Positions 7,762 through 49,830 of a stretch of DNA of 64,000 nt are shown here, piece by piece. Within the stretch, counting starts at the first letter, position 1, and each line of letters starts with the position of its first letter. The position numbers and the translations under genes are program-made. The stretch lies in contig NZ_VFPP01000001.1 of assembly GCF_006716745.1 (NCBI RefSeq), positions 3,968,001 to 4,032,000 of the forward strand, given 5' to 3'. Source of the DNA: Saccharothrix saharensis (GTDB lineage Bacteria; Actinomycetota; Actinomycetes; Mycobacteriales; Pseudonocardiaceae). Under the pieces are notes generated by a model. It was not told the DNA's origin. It saw only the letters and a list, made by a program, of their open reading frames with translations, and made no database searches.

Positions 7762-8727
7762 ATGATCAGGCTGTCCGCGATCACCCCGTCCGGCCCCGTC
7801 CAGCTGGGCAACTACCTCGGCGCCATCCGGCGGTGGGCCGCCGAGGGCACCGAGGAGGACGTCTACTTCATCAGCGACCTGCACGCCATGACGACGTCGC
7901 ACAACCCGTCACGGCTGCGGTCGTTGACCCGGGAGCAGTTGGCGGTGCTCATCGCCGCCGGCGTGGACCCGCGGTCGGTGGCCGTGCAGTCCGACCTGGT
8001 CCGCGAGCTCGGCGCGTTGACGTGGGTGCTGGAGTGCACCTGCACGTACGGCGAGGCGGCCCGGATGATCCAGTTCAAGGAGAAGTCCGCGGGCCGGTCG
8101 TCGGTCCGGTTGAGCCTGCTCACGTACCCGGTGCTGATGGCGGCCGACATCCTGCTGCAGGGGGCGCACGAGGTGCCGGTCGGTGACGACCAGCGGCAGC
8201 ACGTGGAGCTGGCCCGGGTGCTGGCGCGGCGGTTCAACGGCACCTACGGCGAGGTGTTCGTGATGCCGCGGTCCGTGGTGCCGCCGACCGCGGCGCGGGT
8301 GCGCGACCTGGCCGACCCGTCGCGGAAGATGGCGAAGACGGCGAAGGACGCGGCGGGCACGGTGTTCGTGCTCGACCCGCCGGACCTGGTGCGGCGCAAG
8401 ATCCGGCGTGCGGTGACCGACGACCTCGGCGAGGTGCGTTACGCGCCGGTGGAGCAGCCCGGGGTGGCGAACCTGCTGGAGATCCTGGCCGCGTGCACCG
8501 GGAAGGAGCCGGCCGAGCTGGCGTCGTCGCTGTCGGACTACAACGAGTTGAAGGAGGTCACGGCGGACGCGGTGATCGAGGAGCTGCGCCCCGTGCGCGA
8601 GGTCACCCAGGGCCTGCTGGACGACCCCGCCGAACTGGACCGCGCCCGCGCCCACGGCGCCGAACGCTCCCGCGCCCGCTGCACCCACCGCCTGGACGCC
8701 GCCCTCCGCATGTCGGGCCTGGCCTGA
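7762..8727 (+). CDS. trpS: Tryptophanyl-tRNA synthetase, probably auxiliary/inducible
   Basis: Class I aminoacyl-tRNA synthetase charging tRNA-Trp, cytoplasmic, 321 residues. ATG 7762 follows GAAGGG. The HIGH-like signature is PSGPVQLGNYLG near the N-terminus and the KMSKS loop is RKMAKTAKD, a substituted form. The TrpRS block LTYPVLMAADILLQGAHEVP and GDDQRQHVELAR (ATP/Trp site) are intact. In Streptomyces an auxiliary, indolmycin-tolerant TrpRS is regulated by ribosome-mediated attenuation. The identical arrangement here suggests this is the auxiliary enzyme, with a second housekeeping trpS elsewhere; this is inference. No other gene shares the transcript: a repeat array begins at the stop codon. 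Confidence 0.95.
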   Translation: MIRLSAITPSGPVQLGNYLGAIRRWAAEGTEEDVYFISDLHAMTTSHNPSRLRSLTREQLAVLIAAGVDPRSVAVQSDLVRELGALTWVLECTCTYGEAARMIQFKEKSAGRSSVRLSLLTYPVLMAADILLQGAHEVPVGDDQRQHVELARVLARRFNGTYGEVFVMPRSVVPPTAARVRDLADPSRKMAKTAKDAAGTVFVLDPPDLVRRKIRRAVTDDLGEVRYAPVEQPGVANLLEILAACTGKEPAELASSLSDYNELKEVTADAVIEELRPVREVTQGLLDDPAELDRARAHGAERSRARCTHRLDAALRMSGLA

Positions 8728-8872
8728 CCCGAGAGTCGAACGCTCAGGTCCCGAGAGTCGAACGTTCGCGACCCCCGAATTCAACGCTCAGGTTCGCCGG
8801 GCTTGTCCTGAGCGTTGAATTGAGAGGGCCTGAGCGTTCGACACTCGGGACCTGAGCGTTCGACACGCGCGG
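8728..8872. repeat. Inverted array of six intergenic repeat units
   Basis: The whole gap between the convergent trpS and NUDIX genes consists of about 20-bp units. Three run forward (8729-8748 CCGAGAGTCGAACGCTCAGG, 8751-8770, 8773-8792) and three are inverted (8807-8825, 8829-8849, 8851-8872). The innermost pair forms a perfect 15-bp stem, AATTCAACGCTCAGG (8778-8792) with 8807-8821, and a 14-nt loop; outer units pair as nested stems. The first unit begins directly after the trpS TGA, and the last ends one base from the opposing stop. The same motif recurs at 49747-49830. It may act as a bidirectional terminator; its origin is unknown. Confidence 0.88.
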
Positions 8873-8873
8873 G

Positions 8874-9689
8874 TCAGGGGAGGTGGGAGAGGAGGGTCGG
8901 GAGGAGGACGCGGTCGGCGGGGAGCCAGTCGACGGTGGTCAGGGTGGCGGAGGTCAGCCAGCGGACGGCCTGGTGGTCGGTCGGGGTCGGGGTGCCGGAG
9001 GTCAGGGTGGCGGTGTAGGCGCGGAGGAGGAGGTCGGAGCGGAGGGGGATGTCCGGGCCGATCCCGGCACCCGGGGTGACGGTGACGGAGAGTTCCTCGG
9101 CGCACTCGCGGATGACGGCGGCGTGGTCCGTTTCGTCCGGTTCCACGCGACCGCCGGGCAGTTCCCACTTGCCCGCGGCGTCGGGCGGGTAGCTGCGCTG
9201 CTGGGCCAACAGGCGGCCGTTGTCGAAGATCGCGGCGGCTACCACCACGCGCGCGCTCAGGAGTTCGACGCTCCGAGCCGACACGGCCGCCGCACGCGCC
9301 TCCAGCACCTTGAGAGCCAGACCACGGCCCACCACGACGTCGGCCAGGCGACCGAACGGGCCACCGGGGCTCGACCACTCCACCGAGTCCACCACCATCG
9401 TGCCGCCACCGGTGTGCAACAGGTCCGTGACCAGCGTGAACCGCGGCAACGGCCCACCGACCAGCTCCGCCGACACACCCGTGGTGCCCGCCCGCGTCAC
9501 GACCAGCGTCCCGGTCACCGGCCCCACCGACCCGGCCAGCCGCGCCCCCTCGAACAGCACCGGCGCGCCACCCGTGATCCGCACGCCCAGCCCGCGCACG
9601 GCCCGCGCCAGCAACCGGGCGTCCAACAACGCGGCGGCGACGGTCCGCAACGGGGCGTCGACCAGGGTGGTGTTCCTCAGCTCGGGCAC
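8874..9689 (-). CDS. SRPBCC-like domain fused to NUDIX hydrolase
   Basis: 271 residues. The N-terminal 140 residues look like the SRPBCC/START-related ligand-binding fold (NTTLVDAPLRTVAAALLDAR start, VDSVEWSSPGGPFGRLADVV near the end). The C-terminal half is a MutT/NUDIX pyrophosphohydrolase with WELPGGRVEPDETDH and RECAEEL; the Nudix box GX5EX7REUXEE is met, but the final Gly is Ser. The NUDIX half is MutT1/NTP-cleaning-like; the fusion partner's ligand is unknown. The GTG start at 9689 is preceded by AGGA; an in-frame GTG at 9713 lies just after the kinase stop. Same strand as the two-component genes, so it may be the third gene of that operon. Confidence 0.85.
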   Translation of the reverse strand: MPELRNTTLVDAPLRTVAAALLDARLLARAVRGLGVRITGGAPVLFEGARLAGSVGPVTGTLVVTRAGTTGVSAELVGGPLPRFTLVTDLLHTGGGTMVVDSVEWSSPGGPFGRLADVVVGRGLALKVLEARAAAVSARSVELLSARVVVAAAIFDNGRLLAQQRSYPPDAAGKWELPGGRVEPDETDHAAVIRECAEELSVTVTPGAGIGPDIPLRSDLLLRAYTATLTSGTPTPTDHQAVRWLTSATLTTVDWLPADRVLLPTLLSHLP

Positions 9690-48355: not shown

Positions 48356-49750
48356 ATGGCTGAACAGGAGTACCGCGTCGAGCACGACACCATGGGCGAG
48401 GTCAGGGTGCCGGCGGACGCGCTGTGGCGTGCGCAGACGCAGCGCGCGGTGGAGAACTTCCCGATCTCCGGGCGCGGCCTGGAACGCACCCAGATCCGCG
48501 CGCTCGGCCTGCTCAAGGCCGCCGCGGCGCGGGTGAACGAGCGCTTGGGGGTACTGGAACCCGAAGTCGCCGCGGCCATCGCCTCGGCCGCCGACGCCGT
48601 CGCGGCGGGCGAGCACGACGAGCACTTCCCGGTGGACGTGTTCCAGACCGGGTCCGGCACGTCGTCGAACATGAACGCCAACGAGGTCATCGCCACCCTG
48701 GCGACCCGCGCGCTGGGCCGTGACGTGCACCCGAACGACCACGTCAACGCCTCCCAGTCGTCCAACGACACGTTCCCGACCACCCTGCGCGTCGCCGCCA
48801 CCGAAGCCGTGGCGCGCGACGTCATCCCGGCCCTGGAGCACCTCGTCTCGGTGCTGGACGCCCGGGCCGCCGACTGGACGTCGCTGGTGAAGTCCGGTCG
48901 CACGCACCTGATGGACGCCGTGCCGGTCACGCTGGGCCAGGAGGCGGGCGCGTGGGCGACCCAGGTCCGGTACGGGATCGAACGCCTCACCTCCTCGCTC
49001 CCCCGGCTGGCCGAGCTGCCGATCGGCGGCACGGCCGTGGGCAGCGGCCTGAACGCGCCGGCGGGCTTCGGCGCCGCGGTCTCGGCCGAGCTGGCCTCGG
49101 TCACCGGCCTGCCGCTGACCGAGGCGCGCGACCACTTCGAGGCGCAGGCCACGCAGGACGGCGTGGTGGAGATCTCCGGGCAGCTGCGGGCCACCGCCGT
49201 GGGGCTCTACAAGGTCGCGAACGACCTGCGGTGGCTCGGCTCCGGTCCCCGCACCGGCCTGGGCGAGCTGGCGCTGCCGGACCTCCAGCCGGGCTCGTCG
49301 ATCATGCCGGGCAAGGTGAACCCGGTGATCTCCGAGGCCACGATGATGGTGGTGGCGCAGGTGATCGGCAACGACGCGGCGGTGGCGTTCGCCGGGTCGC
49401 AGGGCAACTTCCAGCTCAACGTGATGCTGCCCGTGATCGCCCGCAACGTCCTGGAGTCGGCCCGCCTGCTGGCCGCCGTCGCCCGCCTGCTCGCCGACAA
49501 GGTGCTGACCGGCGCCGAGCCGCAGATCGACCGGATGCGCGAGTACGCCGAGTCGTCGCCGTCCATCGTCACCCCCCTCAACCGCTACCTGGGCTACGAG
49601 GAAGCCGCCTCCATCGCCAAGCAGTCCCTGAAGGAGCGCAAGACCATCCGCGAGGTCGTCCTCGAACGCGGCCACGTCCCCGGCAAGCTCTCCGAAGCCG
49701 ACCTGGACGCCGCCCTCGACGTCCTCCGCATGGCCAACCCCCACCCGTGA
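48356..49750 (+). CDS. fumC: Class II fumarate hydratase
   Basis: 464 residues, TCA-cycle fumarase, cytoplasmic tetramer. Signature [12 protein letters not shown] and upstream [40 protein letters not shown] (catalytic His in THLMDA). ATG 48356 gives the usual [20 protein letters not shown]. The TGA stop is immediately followed by (and part of) the second intergenic repeat array. Equivalent of Rv1098c. Confidence 0.98.
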
Positions 49751-49830
49751 GTCGAACCCCCAGGCCCCGAGTGTCGAACCCCCAGGCCCCGTGAGTCCTA
49801 CGTTCAGGACCCCTGAATTCAACGCTCGGA
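49747..49830. repeat. Second array of the intergenic repeat family
   Basis: Four direct units: 49747-49766 (GTGAGTCGAACCCCCAGGCC), 49768-49788, 49791-49809 and 49813-49830 (CTGAATTCAACGCTCGGA). The fourth matches the third unit at 8773-8792 almost exactly. Unit 1 contains the fumC TGA and unit 4 contains the last codon and TGA of the convergent EamA gene. Confidence 0.85.

Follow-up and report, generated by a model that had tools for sequence, protein, structure and literature searches.

What fills the gap between two converging genes when the whole of it is made of repeats? The question is raised by a short interval in Saccharothrix saharensis that lies in a window of 64,000 nucleotides (the whole stretch of DNA that was analysed). 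An earlier note on the window had taken the interval to be a dispersed palindromic element that inserts or amplifies at convergent 3' ends. We find that it is one of many arrays in the genome, and that these arrays belong to the dispersed extragenic palindromic repeats, among which their geometry and dialect behaviour are unusual. The explanation to which we give an even chance is that each array is a phased set of dyad sites for a putative DNA-binding protein, which would act as a boundary or as a block in both directions where genes converge, and that the arrays spread by copying.

The arrays of the window

The convergent gap (8728-8873) consists of six 21-bp units, three facing three. The earlier note had described this arrangement correctly, but its unit length of 20 bp needs revision, since the 21-bp unit and one linker base give a period of exactly 22 bp. 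The perfect 15-bp central stem that it had pointed out is indeed present, and both copies can be placed (8778-8792 and 8807-8821, AATTCAACGCTCAGG and its complement). The gap holds a long inverted repeat with 63-nt arms that are 84% complementary, with 14 nt between them. Units had also been said to abut the TGA on both sides. This is so on the left, where the first unit starts right after the TGA of the + strand gene (gene end 8727), whereas the outermost right unit stops 2 bp short of the TGA of the - strand gene (8874-8876). Read inward from each stop, the array presents two A units and one C unit, followed by the 14-bp centre (Table 1). The tRNA-synt_1b gene has a similar C-terminus and stop in congeners, whether the array is present or absent.

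In the second array of the window, the first unit supplies the left gene's TGA (CCCG-TGA-GTC), and the C unit overlaps with the stop called for the gene on the right.

Table 1. Coordinates of the array units and flanking genes in the window
Feature	Position	Strand	Basis
Left convergent gene, tryptophanyl/tyrosyl-tRNA synthetase class (tRNA-synt_1b)	7762..8727	+	Translation; Pfam PF00579 E=8e-49
Outer unit A1 (dialect GTC-GAA-C), flush with the left gene's TGA	8728..8748	+	Unit scan
Unit A2	8750..8770	+	Unit scan
Inner cap unit C (TTCAAC core)	8772..8792	+	Unit scan
Centre, 14 bp	8793..8806	.	C-to-C start distance 35 bp, fits helical-phase series
Inner cap unit C, right arm	8807..8827	-	Unit scan
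Unit A, right arm	8829..8849	-	Unit scan
Outer unit A, right arm, 2 bp from the right gene's TGA	8851..8871	-	Unit scan
Right convergent gene, NUDIX domain protein	8874..9689	-	Pfam PF00293 E=1e-15
Second window array, single arm of four units (GAA, GAA, CTA, C)	49744..49830	+	Unit scan

Unit, period and arm

Below, G000 is the own genome (S. saharensis), other G-numbers are related genomes, and L-numbers are loci or stretches. The own-genome set was obtained from 65 stretches fetched around listed copies, together with the window, and contains 70 arrays with 435 units. Its arrays were picked at the first 100 of the 170 places with the exact GAA motif and at 37 places with the C motif, so dialect counts from this set are biased; unbiased dialect figures come from a contiguous 464 kb and from orthologous gaps in relatives.

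The consensus of the 435 units is CCCG[ACT]G[AT]GTCGAAC[GC][CT]TCAGG; the A unit is given by CCCG[ACT]G[AT]GTCGAACG[CT]TCAGG, and the C unit reads CCCC[CT]GA[AG]TTCAACG[CT]TCAGG. The unit, 21 bp long, has imperfect dyad symmetry (CCnGAGnGT-CNN-ACnCTCnGG), and its positions 5-17, 7-15 and 3-19 form no Watson-Crick pair in most copies. The spacing of the units is rigid. A free scan for units, with no fixed step, places 312 of 314 same-strand neighbours in the 70 own-genome arrays exactly 22 bp apart and the other two 21 bp apart, and pairs of the generic core in the 464 contiguous kb occur 29 times at spacing 22 and never at 19-21 or 23-25.

The basic piece of an array is a polar arm made of A units followed by one C unit at the 3' end, and a C-type unit ends 290 of the 313 arms that have at least three units (all genomes). 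Arms are arranged head to head (C inside), tail to tail (A inside, usually with a start-to-start distance of 17 bp) or solo. Since solo arms are common and arms are also found in tandem gaps, the arm rather than the palindrome is the basic unit. The arrays comprise about 65-300 bp of repeated units.

Placement in the genome

A genome-wide motif search, which the earlier note had proposed as a check, bears out the dispersed nature of the repeats. The 14-mer core GTCGAACGCTCAGG has 170 exact copies (89 + 81) in the 8.92-Mb genome, and the reversed pattern has none (0 + 0). Within the window, the 14-mer has 7 matches at up to two mismatches, against 1.2 expected and a maximum of 4 in 100 shuffles. 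A stricter census finds 279 matches in the genome and 31 in the 464 kb, all of the latter within arrays, from which the total is estimated by scaling at ~126 arrays.

The arrays are strongly enriched in convergent gaps. The 464 contiguous kb hold 14 arrays, 11 in the 70 convergent gaps and 3 in the 325 others (2 of 254 tandem and 1 of 71 divergent; Fisher p=6e-7), gap types being taken from our own codon-usage gene caller rather than from annotation, so that single gap types may be wrong. A dispersed palindromic family enriched at convergent junctions is thus supported; simple insertion, the other part of that proposal, is not. Neither of the two outcomes that would have refuted the proposal, a motif confined to this gap or the lack of any excess in convergent gaps, was observed. 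As 11 of the 70 convergent gaps carry an array, the function of the arrays is dispensable at most junctions.

Many arms begin at or near a stop codon, and the flanking stops belong to unrelated genes. For 91 of the 121 own arms, a same-sense stop lies within 80 bp on the A side, and for 70 it lies between -7 and +6 bp from the start of the arm. The commonest offsets are 0 (27 arms) and -7 (16 arms), the latter placing the stop inside the unit (CCCG-TGA-GTC). On their C side, 17 arms meet the stop of an opposing gene (-12 to 0 bp), and for 16 arms no 3' end was called on either flank up to a distance of 80 bp.

Two further observations concern location. At L103:3874-5019, two solo arms face each other around a 918-bp gene; we considered this locus as a candidate autonomous element and rejected it, the enclosed gene encoding a DUF559 protein. 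Of the first 100 listed exact motif copies (170 in the genome), 6 fall in the first 2.2 Mb (G000:C1:1-2200000), and the arrays may avoid part of the chromosome.

Helical phasing between arms

The distance between facing arms was studied in arrays whose innermost units are both C-type, with each gap and distance counted once; this filter removed rows with distances of 16, 22, 25, 37, 38 (2), 39 (2), 56, 57, 62, 90 (2) and 112. Among the loci read, 46 of 76 head-to-head C-to-C distances belong to a mode at 35-37 bp. The other 30 are 14 (1), 16 (4), 25/26 (6), 45-48 (12), 56/57 (6) and 111 (1), and 28 of them lie within 1.5 bp of 35.6+k*10.5, where 29% would be expected; only 48 and 111 fall outside. 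The phasing resultant is R=0.89 at 10.5 bp (p=5e-5, the limit of the simulation), compared with 0.81 at a period of 10, 0.78 at 11 and lower values at six other periods tried, and the counts are the same after removal of 7 duplicate arrays. Head-to-head and tail-to-tail phases add up to 0.0 mod 10.5, the value predicted for polar sites that occupy one face of the helix in both topologies. Since the centre sequences mostly look unrelated, it is unlikely that the distance classes were all copied from a common ancestor.

Folding and gene-end hairpins

The gap in the window had been called more structured than a terminator. Its predicted RNA fold agrees with this description (-110.6 kcal/mol, z=-12 against dinucleotide shuffles), but the arms are not matched to each other as those of a selected stem would be: in 39 arrays, an arm pairs with its own partner no more closely than with the arm of another array (duplex p=0.22, identity p=0.45). 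The arms are not mutually co-adapted, and it follows that the conserved object is the unit rather than the stem and that the shared units alone explain the strong fold. Selection on an arm-arm stem was therefore dropped as unsupported by the swap test. Mixed arrays show only a weak mirror order of dialects, with 58 of 103 compared to an expectation of 51.2 (p=0.055).

On circumstantial evidence, the arrays may take over the gene-end role of hairpins. At the L091 gap, 9 of the 12 array-less congeners folded (G255 and G143, also array-less, being left out of this count) have a hairpin of -25 kcal/mol or lower within 46 nt, and at the L082 gap such a hairpin is present in 5 of 15 array-less genomes. 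Among array-less convergent gaps of the 464 kb, 34 of 59 reach -25 kcal/mol and 15 of 59 are no longer than 5 bp; random 120-bp stretches reach that value in 14 of 60 cases. Of the 11 array gaps in the same 464 kb, 7 contain nothing else to fold and 4 contain another foldable stretch. An ordinary hairpin stands beside the arms at L085 and L099 (by eye). No U-tract terminator, that is a GC hairpin followed by a run of T, was found in 8600-9000.

Compared with intrinsic bidirectional terminators, the arrays share the position between convergent stops, and several of their array-free orthologous gaps hold strong GC hairpins. They differ in having no U-tract, in extending over about 65-300 bp of repeats and in having arms that are not co-adapted.

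Persistence in relatives

The census pattern CGNGWGTCNNRCGYTC occurs 99-493 times in 14 of the 25 genus genomes, counting the own genome, 75 times in G195 and 0-5 times in each of the remaining 10; its reversed control occurs 0-5 times. The 14 array-rich genomes form one group in a four-protein tree (base support 0.72, or 1.00 without G215), with G195 outside it.

An inverted array occupies the convergent gap described above in 14 of the 25 genus genomes, S. saharensis among them, and the L091 gap has an array in 9 of 23. A comparison of orthologous gaps had been suggested as a check, and there persistence proves commoner than absence: when 16 more gaps were looked up, G206 yielded 15 of them (12 with an array) and G143 yielded 14 (10 with an array). 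Simple insertion at gaps is not borne out by this persistence; copying between loci gains support from shared centres (see below). At some gaps the array is absent or collapsed in close relatives; in G143, for instance, L108 is reduced to the outer ends of the array. Arm topology can persist as well. By eye, the tail-to-tail form (class 2) recurs at the L082 gap in G000, G288, G296, G292, G110 and G232, and the solo arm at L063 in G000, G296, G159, G288, G143, G110 and G215. The L093 gap is class 1 in G000 and class 2 in G206, and has no array in G143.

At the L100 gap, G206 (L237) has an insertion sequence with a DDE_Tnp_4 transposase inside the array units near the dyad centre, and G143 (L236) has, likewise inside the units near the dyad centre, a short palindromic insert whose ends resemble those of the G206 element. 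These inserts resemble the association of REP with insertion sequences described in the available passages of PMC1525189.

Dialects, turnover and copying

The centre of the unit, GTC-NNR-C, varies by species. It is GTCGAAC in G000 (49 of 53 core units in the contiguous 464 kb) and GTCCTAC in its closest relative G206 (71 of 73 units in orthologous arrays). G143 has a mixture (CAA 26, CTA 16, GAA 12 and GTA 8 of 66), and mixed dialects are also held by G292. With few arrays each, G215 has mostly ATG, G127 GTA, and G195 GTG and others.

Over 16 gaps shared by G000 and G206, for which only arrays adjacent to the stop were taken, orthologous units are 69.1% identical and non-orthologous units 68.5%, while between-array identity is 82.4% within G000 and 84.1% within G206. 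Unit turnover at conserved positions is thus complete in this pair. G143 does not share this homogeneity: its arrays have an identity of 0.73 within the genome, compared with 0.74 to G000 and 0.78 to G206 at shared gaps. Concerted evolution holds for the G000/G206 pair, and G143 is a mixture.

In comparisons of the centres between arms at different gaps, 88 of 3900 pairs match at no fewer than 10 of 11 bases, against 14 of 3900 after shuffling, and identical 14- and 15-bp centres occur at unrelated gaps of different species; one 15-bp centre is common to L083 in G000 and L091 in G159. Shared centres at unrelated gaps argue for copying between loci. Units also seem to be rewritten in place, because at L084 the dialects of G000, G206 and G143 differ although the likeness of their centres can still be recognised.

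Within arms, GAA lies outside CTA in 31 cases, inside in 6 and interleaved in 2. A general rule that the newer dialect lies outside was rejected, as CTA/CAA (7 versus 12) and CAA/GTA (4 versus 9) have no consistent order.

Comparison with known systems

The arrays are closest to the REP, BIME and REPIN families, with which they share short extragenic palindromic units, doublets or clusters placed head to head or tail to tail, hundreds of copies, a preference for 3' ends and convergent gaps, and insertion of IS elements into units. In the passages available, REP/BIME are reported between convergent genes and as gyrase targets in Escherichia coli (PMC3733652, PMC1525189), and REP/REPIN are defined by a GTAG or CGTC tag beside the palindrome (PMC3733652). 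REP-type placement, extragenic and enriched at 3' ends and convergent gaps, is found here. Unlike REP/REPIN, the arrays have no GTAG/CGTC tag (absent from the consensus of 435 units) and the own genome has no RAYT. They also differ from REP in their rigid 22-bp tandem period, the polar arm with its cap unit, the helical phasing between arms and the dialect switch between sister species. The Y1_Tnp domain (PF01797) has 0 matches in G000 and also 0 in the array-rich G143, G206 and G288; it occurs in 5 of 25 genus genomes, namely 3 of the 14 array-rich ones (G292, G255, G110), G195 and 1 of the 10 array-poor ones (G247). RAYT/REPIN machinery was rejected because PF01797 is absent from the own genome, and membership in REP/REPIN also fails on the missing tag.

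Like the arrays, Neisserial DUS occur as inverted pairs at gene ends and are short motifs with species dialects. The arrays differ from them in forming tandem 22-bp series at gene ends, and in some species in mixing dialects: the uniform dialect of DUS has its counterpart in G000 and G206 but not in G143 and G292. Species-specific motif variants are described for the DUS dialects of Neisseriaceae in the available part of PMC3630211.

With regard to geometry, the arrays can also be set beside cooperative DNA-binding site arrays. ParB/KorB sites, BldC operators and MuA/TnsB end sites are such arrays, in which repeated sites are phased on one helix face, as here. Unlike ParB/KorB-type arrays, those described here are dispersed over about 126 (estimated) gene ends, and their binder is putative.

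Other candidates were set aside. A CRISPR array was rejected, as the units abut with one linker base, differ from each other and form inverted arms. A LexA-like site came into question on account of the TCGAAC in the unit and was dropped because the unit core changes between dialects. Searches against 4227 Rfam families gave nothing, either with gathering thresholds on the whole window or with E<=5 on 8650-8950. A plasmid or viral origin was set aside as well: blastn at E<=1e-5 finds no counterpart of the array among 72,556 plasmid records, and IMG/VR has no exact match to two units. A literature search of titles and abstract openings retrieved no account of these repeats, and a term search of the S. 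espanaensis genome paper (PMC3469384) gave no passage relevant to them.

Possible explanations

The reading that we give an even chance would work as follows. A putative DNA-binding protein would recognise each 21-bp imperfect dyad, the units recurring every 22 bp (about two turns) and the polar arm closing with one variant cap unit C. The two arms would be set so that all sites share one helix face, allowing a cooperative nucleoprotein assembly. Lying flush with stop codons, such a complex would halt transcription from both sides as a road-block or terminator, or serve as a supercoil or boundary element, and would replace the ordinary GC hairpin. Arrays would spread and homogenise by copying between loci, giving rise to species dialects of the unit centre. 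Protein-bound double-stranded DNA is favoured over an RNA hairpin because of the helical phasing and because the arms are not co-adapted. The rigid spacing, the placement at stops in convergent gaps, the persistence in relatives and the hairpins of array-less congeners at L091 also speak for this reading. Against it count the weak case for a replacement of terminators, the many convergent gaps that do without an array, and the gaps at which close relatives have lost or collapsed arrays. Unit, period, arm order, phasing, placement, persistence, dialect turnover and shared centres can be read from the sequences, whereas protein binding, the block to transcription, the substitution for a hairpin and the way of copying are inferred. 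More tentatively, and with somewhat less than even confidence, we suggest a so far undescribed gene-end nucleoprotein system of the Pseudonocardiaceae, in which a change of specificity would cause arrays to be rewritten by array-to-array copying while position, arm order and phase are kept; mixed-dialect species would then be in the middle of a switch.

Mobility offers the strongest competitor, though we think it unlikely. The array would be a MITE-like minimal non-autonomous transposon whose arms are recombinase-binding ends, with phasing serving to join the ends and convergent gaps serving as safe landing sites. Centres common to unrelated gaps, the opposite topologies of L093 in sister species and the close likeness of units within G000 and within G206 would fit such an element. 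It is harder to reconcile with the arrays at orthologous gaps, the recurrence of rarer topologies across species (class 2 at L082, the solo arm at L063) and the frequency of solo arms, and neither an autonomous copy nor a linked transposase was found (PF01797 search in G000, G143, G206 and G288), the L103 arms enclosing a DUF559 protein gene. No long insert lies between the arms in the 70 listed arrays, and the coding flanks hide any target duplications. An RNA element, in which transcription from either side makes the array fold into a long hairpin that acts as a terminator or shields the 3' ends of mRNAs without a DNA-binding protein, seems to us improbable. The strong fold, the small hairpin possible from a single consensus unit, the location at 3' ends and the hairpins of array-free orthologous gaps (L091, L082) speak for it. 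But an RNA loop would have no obvious use for a centre phased at 10.5 bp, the arms within one array are not co-adapted, several in-unit positions are mostly unpaired and there is no U-tract; solo arms and mirror-reversed (class 2) arrays would moreover yield different RNAs.

Two functional analogies appear less probable still. One, which we rate as distinctly doubtful, is that the arrays are BIME-like sites for gyrase or another topoisomerase that absorb positive supercoils between convergent genes. Gyrase is conserved, and for this reason a dialect switch between close species would not be expected. Phased arrays could present wrapped DNA, and the location preference is that reported for REP/BIME, whereas neither the sequence and period of the unit nor the cap unit or the dialect change is a feature of REP as described in the available passages of PMC3733652 and PMC1525189. 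The other, which would surprise us most, is a self-recognition signal akin to Neisserial DUS or to conjugation recognition repeats, whose species dialect is read by a translocase or uptake machine. The near-uniform dialects of G000 and G206 recall DUS as presented in the available part of PMC3630211, but G143 and G292 carry dialect mixtures, and the strict census found no match in the 464 kb scattered singly in genes.

Should the arrays prove to be bound boundary elements, they would represent a class of terminator or insulator that arises from DNA-protein geometry rather than from an RNA hairpin. In our judgement, this is relevant to antibiotic-producing actinomycetes, in which 3'-end biology is little known. 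Positions that are kept while units turn over fully between sister species are a bacterial example of concerted evolution at dispersed loci, open to testing in culturable strains, and the dialects provide a handle on the putative trans-acting factor, which should co-vary with the GA/CT/CA/AT spelling.

Repeats in other genomes

The tandem GAA pattern matches only Saccharothrix records (15 stretches) in the contigs of 84,980 species. In the wider family, GTCGAACGYTCAGG is present at least once in 41 of 297 genomes (own genus included); outside the genus it occurs 1-2 times per genome, except in G022 with 29.

The pattern used across the order had a spacing of 21 bp. In other Pseudonocardiaceae genera (G130, G133 and G146; L346-L362), the same core recurs at this spacing of exactly two turns, in CCA, CCG and CTG dialects and with up to 103 pairs in G130. 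The distant congener G195 (L320-L338) has its own dialects, GTG, ATG and ATA, and G022 (L321-L365), from another genus, carries GAA arrays that are spaced less strictly (22, 24). At the trpS gap of the array-free Saccharothrix relatives G184 and G088 (L131, L137), other imperfect tandem repeats of ~16-24 bp can be seen by eye, so that repeats of various kinds may be drawn to the gene ends of the genus.
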